From a virus, in IMG/VR virus record IMGVR_UViG_3300037156_000203, positions 1-33,318 of that record: 33,318 nt of DNA. One strand, 5' to 3'. How positions within the stretch are numbered: the stretch's first letter is position 1; every line of letters begins with the position of its first letter. The notes under the pieces were generated by a model, which ran no database searches, was not told where the DNA came from, and worked only from the letters and a program-made list of their open reading frames with translations. Shown one piece after another: positions 25,277 through 33,318 of this stretch. The position numbers and the translations under genes are program-made.

Positions 25277-26592
25277 AGCTGCTCTATCTGGATTACTATG
25301 GAACCGATGGTGGCCTCGATTTTTGCATGAGGGCGAAGGCGGACGGGCACGACGTCCGCTGGTTCTTCAAGCGCGAGCCTCGCAACAACGACATAGGCAA
25401 AGGCCTGGTCACCCGTGTCGCCGACTGGCGCGACCACATGAAGTGGGCCGATCTCGTCGTGCTGTCCGACAACACCCACTACCTGCGAGAGCTTGACGGC
25501 TGGCGAAAGCAAGGCGTGCCGGTGGTCGGCGCCACCTGCCTGTCGGCGACGTGGGAACTGGACCGCAAAACCGGGCAGGACACCTTCAAGAAACACGGCA
25601 TCCCGGTCCCGCCGTTCCGGGAGTTCAGCCGCTACGACGACGCCATCGCCTACATCAAGAAGGAAGGCCGGGCCTTCGTTTCCAAGCCGTCCTACGACGA
25701 GAGCGACAAGTCCCTCAGCTACGTGGGCAAGACGCCGGCCGACCTGATCTACATGATCCAGAAGTGGAAGCGCCAGGCAAAGATGAAGGGCTCCTTCATC
25801 CTTCAGGAGAAGATCGGCGGCTGCGAGATGGCCGTGGGGGCCTTCATCGGGCCGCACGGATTCAATAGCGGCTGGTGCGAGAACTTCGAGGAAAAGAAGC
25901 TTTTCGCAGGCGCCATAGGTCCCAACGTCGGAGAAATGGGGACGTCTCTCGGGTTCACCGCCAAGTCCAAACTGGCAGACAAGGTCTTGAAACCCCTGGA
26001 AGACGCGATCGTCGCCACGGGCCATACCGGCTACGTCGATGTCAACTGTATCATCGACGAGGACGGAGCTCCGTGGCCGCTGGAGTTTACGATGCGGCCT
26101 GGCTGGCCGACGTTCAACATCCAGCAGGCGTTGGTGGGCGGTGACTGCGTGGAATGGCTGGCCTCTTTAGCCGCCGGGCGAGATTCGCGCCCGTTCATAC
26201 AAAAGCAGATGGCGGTGGGCGTCGTCACCGCGCTACCTCAGTTCCCCTACGGAAAGACGGCGATCGAAGACATGGTCGGCGTACCTATCTACGGAGTGAC
26301 AGAGGCCCGAAAGTCCAACATCCACCCTTGCTGCGTCATGCAAGGCACTGCACCGGTCGACCGTGATGGCGAAGTTGTCACCGAAGGCTGCTGGTTAACG
26401 GCGGGAGACTATGTGCTTGTCACCACAGGTGTCGCGGATACGGTAAGCGCTGCTGCTTCCAAGGCGCACCGCCTAGCAGAGCGGATAGCCATACCTGCTT
26501 CCGCTTTCCGTCGCGTGGATATCGGTAGACACCTAGCTAAGGACCTGCCGCTACTTCACAAGCATGGCTACGCTACGACATGGGCTTACTAA
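25273..26592 (+). CDS. ATP-grasp family ligase (PurD-like), chimeric C-terminus
   Basis: 439 residues from ATG 25273, overlapping the previous stop. The N-terminal part (YLDYYGTDGGLDFCMRAKAD) resembles the PurD N-domain; the ATP-grasp core has FVSKPSYDESDKS, FILQEKIGGCEMAVGAF, GPNVGEMGTS and WPLEFTMRPGWPTFN, where PurD has GPNTGGMG and NARFGDPE. It should join a carboxylate to an amine using ATP; the substrate is unknown, and late-module position leaves DNA or small-molecule modification open. From about 26150 codons become AT-ending, and the last ~150 codons are matched by a diverged in-frame second copy at 27091-27546. The C-terminus seems replaced along with the endonuclease, and its end overlaps that gene by 20 bases. 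Confidence 0.8.
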   Translation: MKLLYLDYYGTDGGLDFCMRAKADGHDVRWFFKREPRNNDIGKGLVTRVADWRDHMKWADLVVLSDNTHYLRELDGWRKQGVPVVGATCLSATWELDRKTGQDTFKKHGIPVPPFREFSRYDDAIAYIKKEGRAFVSKPSYDESDKSLSYVGKTPADLIYMIQKWKRQAKMKGSFILQEKIGGCEMAVGAFIGPHGFNSGWCENFEEKKLFAGAIGPNVGEMGTSLGFTAKSKLADKVLKPLEDAIVATGHTGYVDVNCIIDEDGAPWPLEFTMRPGWPTFNIQQALVGGDCVEWLASLAAGRDSRPFIQKQMAVGVVTALPQFPYGKTAIEDMVGVPIYGVTEARKSNIHPCCVMQGTAPVDRDGEVVTEGCWLTAGDYVLVTTGVADTVSAAASKAHRLAERIAIPASAFRRVDIGRHLAKDLPLLHKHGYATTWAY

Positions 26593-27031
26593 ACGGGTCT
26601 AGGTAGGCCGCGGCTTTCCTGAGCAATTCAGGTTGATGGTCAAACATCCCCAATCCTCGGTTGTGCATGTTGCACAACAGACCACGAACGGTGCCTGTGC
26701 TTTCGTCGTGGTCAACGTCTAGTGCGCGGGTTGTAACCTCGCCGCATATCGCACAGCGGCCTTGTTGGGACGCGATCAGATCACGGTATTCCTGCGGGGA
26801 CAGACCGTAGTCTCGTTTGACCTGGCCTTCACGATACCGCTCGGGGTGGGCTGAGTTCCAGGACTTAGCCTGTGCGATCTGCCGGTCCCTACGCTCGGGA
26901 TAGTTTTTCAGATGCCTCTCTGCCTGACACGTCTTGCAGTACGAGGCTAAGCCGAACTTCTTCCCCTTGTTTTTGTGGAAATCATCCGGAGTCTTTTCTA
27001 CCTTGCAGCGAGAGCATAGGATGCGTGTCAT
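26573..27031 (-). CDS. Free-standing HNH homing endonuclease, endonuclease VII family
   Basis: 152 residues, leftward, against its neighbours. Begins at ATG 27031 behind CCAGGACCG; longer starts are open but not protein-like. A zinc ribbon (CSRCKVEKTPDDFHKNKG ... YCKTC) precedes the nuclease core CAICGEV, DVDHDESTGTVRGLLCNMHN and GLGMFDHQPELLRKAAAYL, with DH as the catalytic pair. Similar to the enzyme at 11212-11691 in domain order but clearly a different member. Its 3' end overlaps the ATP-grasp stop. The site is flanked by two diverged copies of the ATP-grasp 3' end, showing how the gene entered: cut, then repair using a foreign phage copy. Confidence 0.88.
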   Translation of the reverse strand: MTRILCSRCKVEKTPDDFHKNKGKKFGLASYCKTCQAERHLKNYPERRDRQIAQAKSWNSAHPERYREGQVKRDYGLSPQEYRDLIASQQGRCAICGEVTTRALDVDHDESTGTVRGLLCNMHNRGLGMFDHQPELLRKAAAYLDPFSKPMS

Positions 27032-27072
27032 CGGATCGGTCCTGGTGCAATAATTGTGCATGTCTGTTGTAG

Positions 27073-27546
27073 CACCTAAACTCACTAAGGCAAGGGGATA
27101 GCGTCGAATGGCTGGCAAGCCTCTGCGCCGGGCGCGACTCGCGGCCCTGGCAGCTAAACAAGCTCTCGACGGGAGTGGTGATGGCCTTGCCGGGCTTCCC
27201 CTACGGCAAGACAGCGATCCCGGACATGGTGGGGGTTCCACTGCAGGGGGTCACGCCGTCGATGGAAAGAAACCTGCATCCGTGCGGGGTGATGATGGGC
27301 TCGGCCCCGTGCGACGTGGACCAGGACGTCCAAGAAAAACCGTGCTGGCTGACGGCGGGGGACTACGTCCTGATCGCAAGCGGCCTGGGGGACAGCGTGC
27401 GGCAGTCCCGCGGACGGGCGTATCGGACGCTGGAGAAGATCAAGGTCCCGGCATCCCCCTTCTGGAGACCGGATATCGGGCAGCGGTTGAAGACGCAGTT
27501 GCCCGAGATCCAGCAGCACGGCTACGCATCGAACATGATATTCTAG
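27073..27546 (+). pseudogene. Displaced C-terminal remnant of the original ATP-grasp gene
   Basis: Open from 27073 (TAG at 27070) to TAG at 27544. From ~27091 the translation parallels the end of the ATP-grasp protein: GDSVEWLASLCAGRDSRPW versus GDCVEWLASLAAGRDSRPF, FPYGKTAIPDMVGVPLQGVT versus FPYGKTAIEDMVGVPIYGVT, CWLTAGDYVLIASGLGDSV versus CWLTAGDYVLVTTGVADTV, down to HGYAS versus HGYAT. About half the residues are identical, so this is not a fresh duplication. Codons are GC-ending like the rest of the phage, so this is probably the native end. GTG 27175 or ATG 27181 (GGGAG upstream) could start a fragment, but that is likely accidental. Confidence 0.8.
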
Positions 27547-28030: not shown

Positions 28031-28398
28031 CGGAACGCATCCGCCAGCCGCGCGAGAAACGGCTTCCTGGGGACCTTCTCGCCGATGGCTCCGATCTGGT
28101 GGGCCCAGCCGTTGATCTCGGCTGAGTGGAAGGTCTGCTGCCCACAGACCAGCCGCACGGGCTTGCTAGCGGCGAAGACCCGGCAACCGGCGCCGGTGAA
28201 GTCGATCACGCTGGGGATCGGTCCGTAGGGCAGAGGGATCACGGCGAAATAGTCAGGCAGGTCCAGCACGTCGCAAGGCGTGGAGAAGGTGAACTTGCCC
28301 TGGATGGACGCCGCGTGGATAGGCTCCGCATCGATCAGCCAAGACGGTACGTCGTCGCCGATCTGAAAGCGGGTGCGGGTGATGGTTTCCTCGATCAC
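28027..28398 (-). CDS. Hypothetical protein, 123 aa
   Basis: Starts at GTG 28398, overlapping the primase stop as GTGA; a longer in-frame reading lies entirely within the primase gene and has Arg-rich out-of-frame composition, so I reject it. A strand-rich sequence (FQIGDDVPSWLIDAEPIHAA; LPDYFAVIPLPYGPIPSVID; AASKPVRLVCGQQTFHSAEI) that reads as a compact beta protein. Coupled to the primase upstream and the ribbon-helix-helix gene downstream, each by four-base overlap, hence part of the replication operon. Function not recognised. Confidence 0.7.
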   Translation of the reverse strand: MIEETITRTRFQIGDDVPSWLIDAEPIHAASIQGKFTFSTPCDVLDLPDYFAVIPLPYGPIPSVIDFTGAGCRVFAASKPVRLVCGQQTFHSAEINGWAHQIGAIGEKVPRKPFLARLADAFR

Positions 28399-30296
28399 AG
28401 CGTGATCTCCTTCCGACAGATGAGAGTGTCGCCCATGTGCGGGGCGACGGCGATCAGTCCAAGGCCCTCTGCATGGGCCTGGGCTTCGGTGAAGTAGCGG
28501 CGGCGATTGCGGGCGTCGGCCACGCCGCTGCGAATCTTGAACTGTTCCTTGACGGCTTCCAAATCGACCATCGGCACGCCGTTCACGTCGACGGTCTCCA
28601 CGTCGTCGGCGATGATGCAGTCGTCGATGCACTCCAGGAACAGCCCGGCGTGCTTGACCTTCTTCTCCCTGGTCGCCGCGGCGATGTCGCCGGTGGAGAT
28701 GGCCATGCTGGTGACGGGCCGGTCCTTGTCGTCGCGGCCGATCTCCACTTCCACCAGGGAGAAGGTCCCCAGCTTCCGCTCGGCGGCGTTGCGGGCCTTG
28801 GTCAGCGATATCTCGCGGACCTGGGCCTTCTGGTAACGGGTGATCTCCAGGACATAGTCGCTGTTGGACGGCAGGGCTTCGGCGCCGCGCGTACCTTCGC
28901 CGTGCTTAGGCGGGTGGTGCGTGGTCACGAACAGTACGCCCAACGCCCGACCGATCGTCGTCAGGTTCTCCACGGCCTGGGCGACCACGGCGTTGTCGTT
29001 CTCGTTGTCGATCAGCCCCGACGCCGACAGCGTCTCCAGGAACACCACGCGCAGCTGCACGCCGAACTTCTGGAGCATGTAGACCTGCTGGTCCTGCAGA
29101 TCGGCCAGGAGCGCGTCCAGGGCCCCGCGCTGCCGCAGTCCGGAGACCTGGGTGTAGGCCACCGGGACGGTCTCGGTTTCCTGCATGGCGGCGATGCGGT
29201 GAGCGAAGCCCGAGCCTTCGGTCCCGGCGAACAGGACGATGGACGCCCCTCGTTCTTCCGGATCGACACCGAAGAACGGCTTGCCCAGCCCCAGACAGCG
29301 CACCAGATGGGCGATGACGAAGGTCTTGCCTGCCCCGGTGGTGCCCACCAACACCGCGAAACCCGTGGCCGGCAGCAGCTTATGGAACAGCCAGTTCTGG
29401 TTGAGATGCAGTTCGTCGTCGGGATAGTGCCACTTGCGGCCGGCGCGGGGCGGCGGCTCGATCTTGACGTCCTTGAAGCCGAGTTCAGGCGACTCGATGC
29501 CCGGTGGACGCTGGCCATAGGCGTAGGCGTTGCGGACCTTCGTCTCCAACTCTTCCAGGGACCAGGGCGGGCTGCAGCGGTCGTTCCAATCGCCGGACAT
29601 CAACTCCCAGGCGGTAAACTCCGACAACCCGAAGTCCTTCAGGGTGCAGGCGACCTGATAAGCGGTCTGGTCGCCGCCGGCGCCTTCTATCGAGAGGGGT
29701 GCCTCCAGAAGGAAAGCTTCCGCCCGAGCCACCGCCGCAGGCGCGTCCAGCGGGACGGCTGGTATTGATACCCGGTCAGCATCCGATAGTTGTCGAGTTC
29801 CTTCTGCCGCCTTAAGGCTTCCGATAAGTCCTGCATCCGCTTCAGCGATTCCGGCGTTGCGCCGGATAGCATAATCTTGTCCCCCCACTGTTGAGCCCGG
29901 TCCGAGGACGTAACCGTGGTCTGATCGGACGTCCAATCCCGGCCCCAGGAGCCCAACAGAATTTCGGGCGCTTGCTCCTTTGAAATACTCATGGACCCCT
30001 CCCGAGGGCGTGTTGACGATGAAGGTGTCGTGCTGGATATCCAGGGCCTTCAGCGAGGCCAGGCCTTGCTTGCCGCCCTTGACGTCGGCGTCCAGAACGA
30101 TGTGACCGGCACAGTGGACGCCGATGTTGGCCTGCGGCCACTTCGCCCACCAGGCCTCGATGACCTTGGGATCCGTGGAAGCGCGGTTGGGCCAGTCGTC
30201 GATCAACGGCGGGAACTTGGCGCCTTCCTTGATCGGAAAGACACCGAGGCCGCGGCCCGCCATCTGCAGCGCCCATTGAAGCTTGTCCCCCGACAT
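28395..30296 (-). CDS. Primase-polymerase / RepA-like ATPase fusion
   Basis: 633 residues from ATG 30296 (AGGGG upstream). Residues ~1-190 are a bifunctional primase-polymerase (Prim-Pol) domain: the metal-binding pair in IVLDADVKGG (Asp69, Asp71), His102 in PSGGVHEYF, and LDVRSDHGYVLGPGST. Residues ~285-520 are a RecA/AAA-type ATPase with Walker A GTTGAGKT (318-325), hydrophobic strand VVFLETL as Walker B, and VLFVTTHHPPKHGEGTRGAEAL. The C-terminal part looks like a DNA-binding tail. Makes primers and probably unwinds DNA at the fork with the polymerase next door. Codon use is anomalous over residues ~102-203, where another frame is open (29687-29992). Confidence 0.85.
   Translation of the reverse strand: MSGDKLQWALQMAGRGLGVFPIKEGAKFPPLIDDWPNRASTDPKVIEAWWAKWPQANIGVHCAGHIVLDADVKGGKQGLASLKALDIQHDTFIVNTPSGGVHEYFKGASARNSVGLLGPGLDVRSDHGYVLGPGSTVGGQDYAIRRNAGIAEADAGLIGSLKAAEGTRQLSDADRVSIPAVPLDAPAAVARAEAFLLEAPLSIEGAGGDQTAYQVACTLKDFGLSEFTAWELMSGDWNDRCSPPWSLEELETKVRNAYAYGQRPPGIESPELGFKDVKIEPPPRAGRKWHYPDDELHLNQNWLFHKLLPATGFAVLVGTTGAGKTFVIAHLVRCLGLGKPFFGVDPEERGASIVLFAGTEGSGFAHRIAAMQETETVPVAYTQVSGLRQRGALDALLADLQDQQVYMLQKFGVQLRVVFLETLSASGLIDNENDNAVVAQAVENLTTIGRALGVLFVTTHHPPKHGEGTRGAEALPSNSDYVLEITRYQKAQVREISLTKARNAAERKLGTFSLVEVEIGRDDKDRPVTSMAISTGDIAAATREKKVKHAGLFLECIDDCIIADDVETVDVNGVPMVDLEAVKEQFKIRSGVADARNRRRYFTEAQAHAEGLGLIAVAPHMGDTLICRKEITL
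29687..29992 (-). CDS. Candidate overprinted 101-aa gene inside the primase gene
   Basis: Out of frame within the primase coding region. ATG 29992 has GGGAGGGGTCC just upstream, one of the best ribosome-binding sites in the window. The product is protein-like: MSISKEQAPEILLGSWGRDW, then GDKIMLSGATPESLKRMQDL, helix RRQKELDNYRMLTGYQYQPS, then a basic Trp/Arg tail (RWTRLRRWLGRKLSFWRH). By hand count roughly 75 of 100 codons end in G or C here, against ~52 of 100 in the primase frame over the same bases, while the primase elsewhere is far higher. That local reversal is the mark of overprinting. Function unknown; the basic amphipathic tail could bind nucleic acid or membrane. Confidence 0.5.
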   Translation of the reverse strand: MSISKEQAPEILLGSWGRDWTSDQTTVTSSDRAQQWGDKIMLSGATPESLKRMQDLSEALRRQKELDNYRMLTGYQYQPSRWTRLRRWLGRKLSFWRHPSR

Positions 30297-30572: not shown

Positions 30573-33318
30573 ATCTAGGGCCTTCCCAGGCGGTGGCGGC
30601 GATAGGGACTTCGGCCAGCCACCGTGGCTTTTGTTTCAGCGTGTTCAGATAGTGCTCGACAGACCCGAAGCCATTGCGTACCTCGGACAGGGCTTCGTCG
30701 TGGATCGTCAGGACCGTGGGGTAGCCTTCGTGCTCCAGACGGAACATGGCGGCCACCAGGACGTCCCTGGCGGTCCCTGAGACGACGTGAGCGCACTGCA
30801 TCCCGCCATAAAGGTCAAGTTCACGCCAGCCTTTGTGCTCGCCCCAGTAGGACACGGTCCAGCGGTTGAACTCGACGTCGTCACCGTCGATCTTGATGGT
30901 CTTGGATTTCCACTTCAGCGACGGCGCGCAGTAGGAGATCACCCTGCCGGATGGCAGCTTGCAATAGAGGAAGGCCTTCGATCGGTCGCAGGTGTATTGG
31001 ACCTTGCCGTCGAGGGCCGAGACGATGCATCCCGGCGCACCCATGGCCTCGATCGCGGCGTCCTGAAGCTCTCGCCAGGAGGCGACGATCCGGGGGTTGG
31101 TGTCGCGCCATGCGCCGACGATCTGCCGGATGCGCTCGTCGGACAGCCGCACGCCGTACTTGGCGCCCATCTTCTTGAAGGCCCCAAGCGCCCCCTGGTA
31201 ACCGCAGTTGTGGACGATCATCGGGCCTTCTCTGCCCCAGACCATGAACCTGTTACGCGGCCCCGCATGAGCAATGTCGTAAACGATGTTCGAGTTCGTC
31301 GATCCGTCTTTGCATATCGAGGACTTTTCGACGATTTCCCTGGTTCGTCTTATGAGATACGAACCTAAGATTTCCAGGTTGGTAGCCCTCGTTGACTCGC
31401 TCTCTGTCCAGTTCCAGGCTTGGGTTGTCCCAGCCTTCCAGAGTGACGATGTACGAGAGGAAACCTCGGCGATTGCGTCGCCAAGGCTCATGGACTTCAA
31501 TTCCCCGAGCGCCGTAGTTATGGTACCCGCTGTCATTGGAGTTGTGGCACCGGTTAATACAGGCACTGATACGACCGAGAAGACGTCGTCTGTGCGCATC
31601 ATCGGCGACAATGTCTTGGTACGCCCAGTACTTTTTTCTTGTGGCTCCAGCCTTCTTGACCGCGCACTTATTGCAGCTAGTCGACGCACCTGACCGAAGA
31701 CTGGATACAAAGACTCCATATATTCGATCTTCGCTACAGTCGCAGCATACCAATACGGCCCTAAGCCCGCCTTTAGGCCCGATATTGTACCCATGGACGG
31801 TAAGCTGGCCAAACCTGTCGCCGATGTTAGGCCGAGGAAGGATGGGCTGGAGACGACCGTCTGAGCCTCTTTCCAGGTTTCTCCGTCCACCAGCAACAGA
31901 TGGTCTGGCGTCATCTCCACGCCATTCACCCAGATGATCTCCCGCAGCCCCATGGCCACGGTACCTTTGTGCTCTACCCATTCTTCCCCGTCCCACAGCC
32001 GATCAAAGATTCCTAGCTCCTTGATAGGCACAAGTCCACGATCTGTAAACACCAGGGTTTCAGGGCCGACGCAAGCGAGTTCAGGAACTTTTCCTTGTTC
32101 CTGCCGCTGGGCCTTGGACACGGCGTCCGTAGGGATGCCGATGATGTTGCCGGCCGTGACCTTGTAGAGATCAGGACCCAGGCCAGCGTCGAAGTTGCGG
32201 AAGGCCTGCAGCTTCCATTGCTCGCCCGCGAGCCAAGCGTTCAGCCGGCCTTCGATGTTGGAGAAGTCCCCGCCCATCAGACGGTGGCCATCCTCGGCGA
32301 TGATCGCGGCTCGCGTGCAAAGGGACAGAACCTCCAGCGGCGCGTCGAACATGAACTCCATCCAGTCGACGACTTCAGCGACACTGGCCGGGCTGTTGAG
32401 CATGGCTACGGTCATCCGCACCCACTCGGCTTCTTCGTCGGTGTCGACCCGCTTCATGTTGTGGAACTGGACGCCGCGACCGACCCAACGGCCCTGCACG
32501 GTTCCGTGGAAGCCAAGGGAGTCGTAGACCCGCCCGTCCTTGCACAGACAGGCCAGCATGGCGGGGAACTTGAAGGCCTTGGCTGATGCCGCCCGCAGGT
32601 GGATGACCTTCTCGACGTCGGGACGGTCAAAGAAGTCCGCCGTGACAATCAGGCCTTCGTGCTCGCCTTCGGCGATGCTCTCGCAGTGGACGCCCTGACT
32701 GTTGATCCAGTCGACGATCTTGGCGACCTCGGTGCATTTCTTGGCGGCGCCGTTGGTCAGCCGCCACATCTCACGGTCGGCGCGCTTAGTGGCCTCTGTG
32801 ACGACGGCCATGGCCTTGCGGATCATCGGCTCGTCGAGACGGATGCCACGGTCATTGATGCGTTGGTCCAGTTCCCAGACGCGGCGCTCGCGCTCGGAAA
32901 GCTGGGGGACCAGTTGGTCTATGGCGTGCTCGGTGGCGACGTCCTGGTCGCAGTAGGCCTGCAGCCGGGAGAGACGGTCTTCGTCCTCCCACCATGTGAT
33001 GTTGCCTTTGTCATCGATCGACCGGGGCAAGCACATCTGCATCATCAGACGGTAGCCCTCCTTGTCCTTCTGGACGTTGGCGCGGACCGCCGGGCCCATG
33101 TTGTCCAGGGAGGCGGGCAGGCCCATCACCCGACCGCGGGCCTGCGTACAGTGCTGCTGCTCGATCTTCAGCGGAGGGAGGGTTTCGTCGACCTGGCGCG
33201 TCAGGGTTTCGTTCCACATGCCGCGCTCGAAAGCCGCGTTGTGGTGAACCATCGGACCGCCATCGGCGACGTGCTCGATCAGATCCTGTGGGAAGGGCTC
33301 GCCTTTACGCCAGCGACG
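30562..33318 (-). CDS. DNA polymerase, family A, with intein (partial at right edge)
   Basis: Main replicative polymerase. Reading frame extends past 33318, so the N-terminus is missing; HVADGGPMVHHNAAFERG near the edge is the Exo II motif of a 3'-5' exonuclease domain. Palm motif A is GGDFSNIEGR (Asp codon 32266-32268), motif C is TIHDEALSEV near the C-terminus, and fingers motif B (O-helix) is split: QGKVPELA lies before, and CGYQGALGAFKKMGAKYG after, an intein at 31207-32073. Removing the intein restores an unbroken O-helix. The frame is open throughout, so a full precursor is predicted. Followed by two coupled genes of the same operon. Confidence 0.92.
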   Translation of the reverse strand, partial: RRWRKGEPFPQDLIEHVADGGPMVHHNAAFERGMWNETLTRQVDETLPPLKIEQQHCTQARGRVMGLPASLDNMGPAVRANVQKDKEGYRLMMQMCLPRSIDDKGNITWWEDEDRLSRLQAYCDQDVATEHAIDQLVPQLSERERRVWELDQRINDRGIRLDEPMIRKAMAVVTEATKRADREMWRLTNGAAKKCTEVAKIVDWINSQGVHCESIAEGEHEGLIVTADFFDRPDVEKVIHLRAASAKAFKFPAMLACLCKDGRVYDSLGFHGTVQGRWVGRGVQFHNMKRVDTDEEAEWVRMTVAMLNSPASVAEVVDWMEFMFDAPLEVLSLCTRAAIIAEDGHRLMGGDFSNIEGRLNAWLAGEQWKLQAFRNFDAGLGPDLYKVTAGNIIGIPTDAVSKAQRQEQGKVPELACVGPETLVFTDRGLVPIKELGIFDRLWDGEEWVEHKGTVAMGLREIIWVNGVEMTPDHLLLVDGETWKEAQTVVSSPSFLGLTSATGLASLPSMGTISGLKAGLGPYWYAATVAKIEYMESLYPVFGQVRRLAAISARSRRLEPQEKSTGRTKTLSPMMRTDDVFSVVSVPVLTGATTPMTAGTITTALGELKSMSLGDAIAEVSSRTSSLWKAGTTQAWNWTESESTRATNLEILGSYLIRRTREIVEKSSICKDGSTNSNIVYDIAHAGPRNRFMVWGREGPMIVHNCGYQGALGAFKKMGAKYGVRLSDERIRQIVGAWRDTNPRIVASWRELQDAAIEAMGAPGCIVSALDGKVQYTCDRSKAFLYCKLPSGRVISYCAPSLKWKSKTIKIDGDDVEFNRWTVSYWGEHKGWRELDLYGGMQCAHVVSGTARDVLVAAMFRLEHEGYPTVLTIHDEALSEVRNGFGSVEHYLNTLKQKPRWLAEVPIAATAWEGPRYDK
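31207..32073 (-). other. Intein in DNA polymerase motif B (289 codons)
   Basis: A self-splicing protein segment. Starts at Cys (32071-32073) with block A CVGPETLVFTDRGLVPIKEL; block B is GVEMTPDHLLLV (residues 51-62, with T55 and H58); block F is VYDIAHAGPRNRFMV, and block G ends IVHN, followed by Cys+1. All splicing residues (Cys1, TxxH, penultimate His, terminal Asn, Cys+1) are present, so it is probably active. Between blocks B and F there is no in-frame endonuclease domain: residues ~75-260 are Ser/Thr-rich and look like an out-of-frame translation, because an HNH gene is written there in another frame (31253-31981). Base composition is more AT-rich than the polymerase. Confidence 0.9.
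31253..31981 (-). CDS. HNH homing endonuclease nested out of frame inside the intein
   Basis: ATG 31981 with GGGACGGGGAAGA just upstream; GTG 31996 is also possible. The first ~50 residues are a by-product of reading block A-B DNA in another frame; the endonuclease begins near 31834 with IGDRFGQLTVHGY, then CCDCSEDRIYG and SLRSGASTSCNKC (zinc-type Cys pairs), ACINRCHNSNDSGYHNYGAR, GIEVHEPWRR, SLELDRERVNEGYQPGNLRF and KTNQGNRRK. This is the phage HNH homing endonuclease type with NYG-(G/A)RGI and LDR-N-YxPxN-RW motifs. Ends within block F. It is the mobility function that normally lies in frame between intein blocks. Confidence 0.8.
   Translation of the reverse strand: MGRAQRYRGHGAAGDHLGEWRGDDARPSVAGGRRNLERGSDGRLQPILPRPNIGDRFGQLTVHGYNIGPKGGLRAVLVCCDCSEDRIYGVFVSSLRSGASTSCNKCAVKKAGATRKKYWAYQDIVADDAHRRRLLGRISACINRCHNSNDSGYHNYGARGIEVHEPWRRNRRGFLSYIVTLEGWDNPSLELDRERVNEGYQPGNLRFVSHKTNQGNRRKVLDMQRRIDELEHRLRHCSCGAA

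Follow-up and report, generated by a model that had tools for sequence, protein, structure and literature searches.

Does the primase gene of a phage conceal a second protein-coding gene in another frame of the same strand? The question arises in a 33.3-kb record from an uncultivated phage, analyzed over its whole length and called here the window, whose primase-polymerase/AAA ATPase gene (28395..30296, minus strand; recognized by family profile matches) contains a long open reading frame (ORF) in the +1 frame. We use W for the window's own sequence or gene and L-numbers (L002, L082, etc.) for the related sequences compared with it. Our preferred explanation, to which we give a probability of about two in three from sequence comparison, is that 29687-29992 on the minus strand is a translated, fast-evolving overprinted gene, lying within a recurrent +1 overprinting site of phage Prim-Pol genes.

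A Candidate Gene under the Prim-Pol Domain

The host protein has a Prim-Pol domain (PF09250, amino acids 9-153; 29838..30272, minus strand; profile match E 2.8e-30) and an AAA_25 match at amino acids 300-466. The candidate ORF (29687..29992, minus strand; 101 codons) lies under primase codons 102-203 and overlaps the C-terminal third of the Prim-Pol domain and the linker after it. The domain is uninterrupted at the overlap, with no insertion there, and the invariant motif residues SGG-x-H and GLDVRS..GYV..GS are conserved through the overlapped stretch. The ATG start (29990..29992, minus strand) is made from the CAT codon of invariant His102 and the G of codon 103. Upstream, the sequence reads TCGGGAGGGGTCC-ATG, which places a Shine-Dalgarno (SD) core GGAGG (29998..30002, minus strand), formed by the Gly99-Gly100 codons GGA GGG, 5 nt before the ATG. 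An out-of-frame 101-codon ORF with a ribosome-binding site, as described in an earlier sequence-only reading, therefore exists.

The same reading counted the ribosome-binding site as support. The site is indeed present, but together with ORF length it is unexceptional in itself, because the window holds about 10 other shadow ORFs of at least 100 codons with a 5-nt SD match. The ORF runs without an internal stop where 2.7 would be expected in the +1 frame (P = 0.0075), and an open run of at least 100 codons has a probability of ~0.013-0.03 under synonymous resampling. Two compositional arguments did not hold. The GC-ending wobble positions of the ORF follow from a first-position GC of 0.70-0.77, which is seen in many Prim-Pol genes whatever their third-position GC (GC3); we accordingly dropped both first-position GC and the ORF's GC-ending codons as evidence, as a feature of the Prim-Pol peptide independent of GC3. 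The ORF was also said not to be a typical Arg/Gly/Ala-rich shadow, and that richness is indeed lacking, but the low GC3 of the primase frame here explains this, so it is not evidence for a gene.

A Codon Anomaly Bounded by the ORF

The primase frame has a GC3 of 0.87 before the candidate ORF, 0.51 over it, and 0.88 after it. A maximum-likelihood two-change-point fit places the low-GC3 segment at primase codons 99-204 (29685..30002, minus strand; GC3 0.51 versus 0.88 outside), with 2-lnL ranges of 96-104 for the start and 179-215 for the end. The fit gains 34.1 lnL, and none of 30 codon shuffles exceeds 10.6. The proposed shift of the primase frame to A/T-ending codons is thus real, and its proposed match to the ORF ends is borne out as well (codons 99-204 versus 102-203).

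Among the large genes of the window, an equal dip occurs only in the DNA polymerase gene (lnL 34.0; the others gain at most 22.9). There, the dip covers codons 385-662 and sits on an intein-like insert (codons 394-682; 31207..32073, minus strand) in which an HNH gene is overprinted out of frame, its core at 31253-31831 on the minus strand (PHROG E 3.6e-31). Because this equal dip sits on an overprinted HNH gene, the polymerase serves as an internal positive control for the effects of dual coding on codon usage. The same dip and stop-codon test picks up an overprinted HNH gene, in the +2 frame, in the polymerase genes of L127 and L131. Since it recovers overlooked HNH genes in phage inteins, the combination of a GC3 dip with a frame-specific stop test should be usable on other phage genes.

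Several further observations concern these inserts. The ends of the window's polymerase insert read CVGPETLVF...MIVHN, followed by CGYQG, and the insert is absent in L009 and L073. Both frames are open over 192 codons in the insert (chance ~0.01 by synonymous resampling), and the HNH frame lacks a good start codon in its vicinity. An intein with an out-of-frame HNH gene is also found in Salmonella phage Ent1 (L200, 1309-2205), L072/L120, L075-L079, and L081; the genes concerned are other phage polymerases and, in L081, a terminase-like gene, and one case is a cultured Jerseyvirus whose intein is annotated but whose HNH frame is not. Elsewhere in the window, the C-terminal part of the ORF at 26573-27241 (minus strand) resembles, by eye, a recombination endonuclease VII-type zinc-binding HNH protein (CSRCK...CKTC...CAICG...DHDESTGTVRGLLCNMHN).

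The Nearest Relative and the Case for a Shadow ORF

Polymerase- and primase-based searches yielded 113 non-identical related Prim-Pol genes; no close relative came from genome-contig scans or from 385 genomes belonging to a single bacterial class. The nearest relative, L002, has a primase 88% identical to that of W in amino acids and speaks against a gene. It carries GGGTGGGCGGCACC at the start site and hence neither the SD nor the ATG of the candidate ORF; another ATG lies upstream, preceded by AAGG only. Its low-GC3 segment starts at about codon 17-21, far upstream of W's ORF start, and ends at 203. The dN/dS of the ORF frame between W and L002 is ~1.0 over codons 102-176, the same as in the control frame +2.

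The two primase genes also form a mosaic. Along the gene, dS runs 1.98, 0.96, 0.21, 0.13, and 0.39, with 1.98 over codons 1-98, 0.96 over codons 99-150, and 0.13-0.39 beyond codon 150. When W 28395-30296 is aligned with L002 285-2186, amino acid identity is ~63-70% in the first 150 codons and ~96% after them, changing sharply in the Prim-Pol/linker region.

These observations feed the main rival explanation, which we consider unlikely: a shadow ORF in a foreign or mosaic Prim-Pol and linker stretch whose low GC3 makes the +1 frame mimic a protein, with start signals that are by-products of SGG-x-H. It is consistent with the mosaicism of the W and L002 primases, with the far upstream onset of low GC3 in L002, with an ORF frame that shows no purifying selection either between W and L002 or in pairs from the clade that carries the ATG, and with Prim-Pol modules that average slightly lower GC3 than the rest of the gene in 45 relatives. 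A verdict of shadow ORF in a mosaic gene was in fact drawn from L002 alone, on its missing start, its low upstream GC3, and its dN/dS of ~1, and was reversed because the polymerase-linked relatives L072-L074, and then L082-L087, L134, and L136, share the dip and the start. The dip recurs in lineages only 42-48% identical to W, where silent sites are saturated, which a shadow ORF would not lead one to expect.

Start Signals Kept through Minor Codons

The ATG at the His102 codon is found in W, L082/L083, L087, L134, L136, and L009, lineages 42-48% identical to W. GGAGG and the ATG occur together in all of these except L009, which has the ATG alone; both are lost in L002. In the tree, W, L002, L082/L083, L087, L009, and L136 form one clade, and L134 falls in its sister group. 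Across 133 invariant degenerate codons in the six lineages, those with a strong preference stay at the GC-rich major codon except at Gly99 and His102. These two keep minor codons (GGA in 5/6 lineages and CAT in 6/6), which together form the SD and the ATG. When codons are permuted inside the dip, SD and ATG come up jointly in five lineages with a probability of 3e-4, and none of the 111 genes outside the clade has both. A start and ribosome-binding site conserved in relatives, one of the outcomes that the sequence-only reading named as support, are present in five of six independent lineages by way of minor codons and lost in the nearest relative.

The conserved start also bears on programmed +1 frameshifting, by which the +1 frame would give a truncated primase a different C-terminus, aided by the internal SD-like sequence. 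SD-like sequences are able to stimulate frameshifting, and in W the open +1 frame extends about 19 codons beyond the ATG in the upstream direction. Frameshifting needs no ATG, yet CAT followed by G is kept via a minor codon in six lineages, and several other lineages begin a +1 ORF of their own with an SD-ATG. We judge this explanation very improbable.

Synonymous divergence (pS) gives a mixed picture: it is lower over the overlap in L082/L083, L041/L045, and L037/L042 but likewise in pairs with no dip, and the comparison of W with L002 is confounded by mosaicism.

Stop Codons and Segment Ends across the Class

The effect of the second frame can be followed beyond the clade of W. We defined dip genes as those whose GC3 falls by 0.15 or more, 23 in all, and counted stops over codons 102-198, with expectations from synonymous permutation. 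The dip genes contain 15 stops in the +1 frame where 36.5 are expected (z -5.6). Their +2 frame is unremarkable (z -0.7), and the downstream region has no deficit (z +1.9). The 78 no-dip genes have a z of -1.6 in the +1 frame, and control genes of the same phages have a weak +1 deficit (z -2.2). Over the 22 maximum-likelihood low-GC3 segments that fall at the place of the ORF, +1 stops number 49 against 88 expected (z -7.2; z -6.0 without the W clade and L134), and low-GC3 segments elsewhere in these genes show z -0.2. For the clade and the class, the deficits range from z -2.9 to -7.2. The +1 stop depletion thus exceeds composition and is frame-specific (z -5.6, -7.2), contrary to the shadow-ORF explanation.

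The depletion also tells against a DNA or RNA element (a replication origin, internal promoter, or mRNA structure) that fixes wobble bases and leaves an open +1 frame incidentally. An AT-richer stretch of a replication gene can serve as an origin, lambda O being an example. Such an element would not predict stop depletion in a single frame, and a search of 29600-30050, L002, and L087 turned up no direct repeats or iterons. We rank it as the least probable of the explanations.

The low-GC3 segments follow the open frames, again contrary to a shadow ORF. In 19 genes, the mean Jaccard overlap of the segment with the +1 open frame is 0.70 (null 0.476 +/- 0.029), compared with 0.37 for the +2 open frame (null 0.32); as in W, the codon disturbance of the host frame is bounded by the ORF. 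In L002, the low-GC3 segment is longer (21-203), and so is the open +1 frame (37-206). Segment and +1 ORF span 77-167 and 78-170 in L099, and 68-153 and 87-159 in L015, and in these two genes both stop ~45 codons before the domain end. Neither a domain boundary nor an imported segment accounts for the way segment ends follow ORF ends in L002, L099, and L015. The fit varies: the dip of L082 spans only part of the ORF, and those of L136 and L009 reach far past it. Taken together, the minor-codon start signals, the segments that track +1 frames, and the dip-specific stop depletion make dual coding, as first proposed from the sequence, the reading that best explains the codon anomaly.

Products of the +1 Frames

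The W product would be a protein of 12.0 kDa with a pI of 10.4, predicted in a low-confidence model to have a disordered N-terminus followed by helices, with a basic C-terminal helix. The structure model, built from two sequences, has a mean pLDDT of 63 and a pTM of 0.30, too weak for a fold search. The product matches no Pfam family or phage protein (best PHROG E 0.043), and codon-aligned and family searches returned no homolog and no similarity to nucleases. Between lineages, the products resemble one another no more closely than the primase alignment predicts. A two-frame substitution test on pairs from the ATG clade gives no sign that the ORF protein is under purifying selection (NN/NS 0.83 versus 0.82 and 0.66 in the flanks); these tests have low power because the pairs are few and mosaic. 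An overprinted gene that is translated and evolves fast would account for every signal described here; the lack of protein-level constraint would then mean rapid turnover of the product or weak constraint on it.

A hydrophobic segment in the +1 product is stronger than under synonymous permutation in L103, L131, L125, L095, and L009 (P 0 to 0.03). VapE-like primases have a 123-codon +1 ORF (L103 3230-3601, L095 3230-3601, and L101 2303-2674) with an SD-ATG drawn from a K-G..N-G motif. In L095 and L103, its product shares a conserved transmembrane C-terminal segment, LT.DHV..FL.LWAVFQ..VQ.IAL..IWP.L; a search for wider occurrence of this product returned the same contigs only. We regard this ORF as a second candidate overprinted gene.

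A Model for Overprinting at the Prim-Pol Locus

Under dual coding, ribosomes would initiate internally on the primase mRNA at the ATG from the His102 codon (CAT plus G), with the two Gly codons of the TPSGG-x-H motif supplying the SD site, and would read the +1 frame for 101 codons to a stop in the linker past the Prim-Pol domain. An open and useful second frame would push the primase wobble positions, which are the second codon positions of the ORF, off GC and so produce the codon anomaly. The site has probably been overprinted repeatedly, with several phage lineages holding a +1 ORF whose products differ or have evolved beyond alignment.

More broadly, Prim-Pol primase genes may be an overprinting hot spot, a view on which we are evenly divided: unrelated small +1 proteins, several of them transmembrane, would arise and turn over repeatedly where the Prim-Pol domain ends, taking their start signals from catalytic-motif codons (SGG-x-H, and K-G..N-G in other lineages). 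As to function, our best guess, held with low confidence, is that the product is small and expressed early, alongside the replication enzymes, and that it targets the host or else tethers or modulates the replisome; a significant transmembrane segment is present in the +1 product of several sister lineages. A recurrent site in so common a phage replication gene would mean an unannotated class of small phage proteins, probably early, because gene finders normally drop nested same-strand genes. With several lineages, one locus, different products, and a start lost in L002, the locus would offer a natural series for the origin of new proteins inside essential genes.

Comparison with Known Overlapping Genes

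The open-access literature searched contained no description of overprinting in Prim-Pol genes. Overprinting in viruses is well known in the form of nested, same-strand, out-of-frame genes (reviewed in PMC8227390). As in those genes, the putative younger ORF lies wholly within an older conserved gene, in the +1 frame and with its own start signals. Unlike them, the candidate has a phage Prim-Pol primase gene as its host, and its site appears to be reused by lineages with unlike products. Among phages, the nearest published case is the ShiLan domain, an HNH insertion that lies out of frame in a methylase gene (PMC11855218). That HNH gene is a mobile insertion, whereas the Prim-Pol case involves neither an insertion nor nuclease similarity; in both, a second coding frame, at the Prim-Pol locus a candidate one, is concealed in the still-open frame of a phage enzyme gene.
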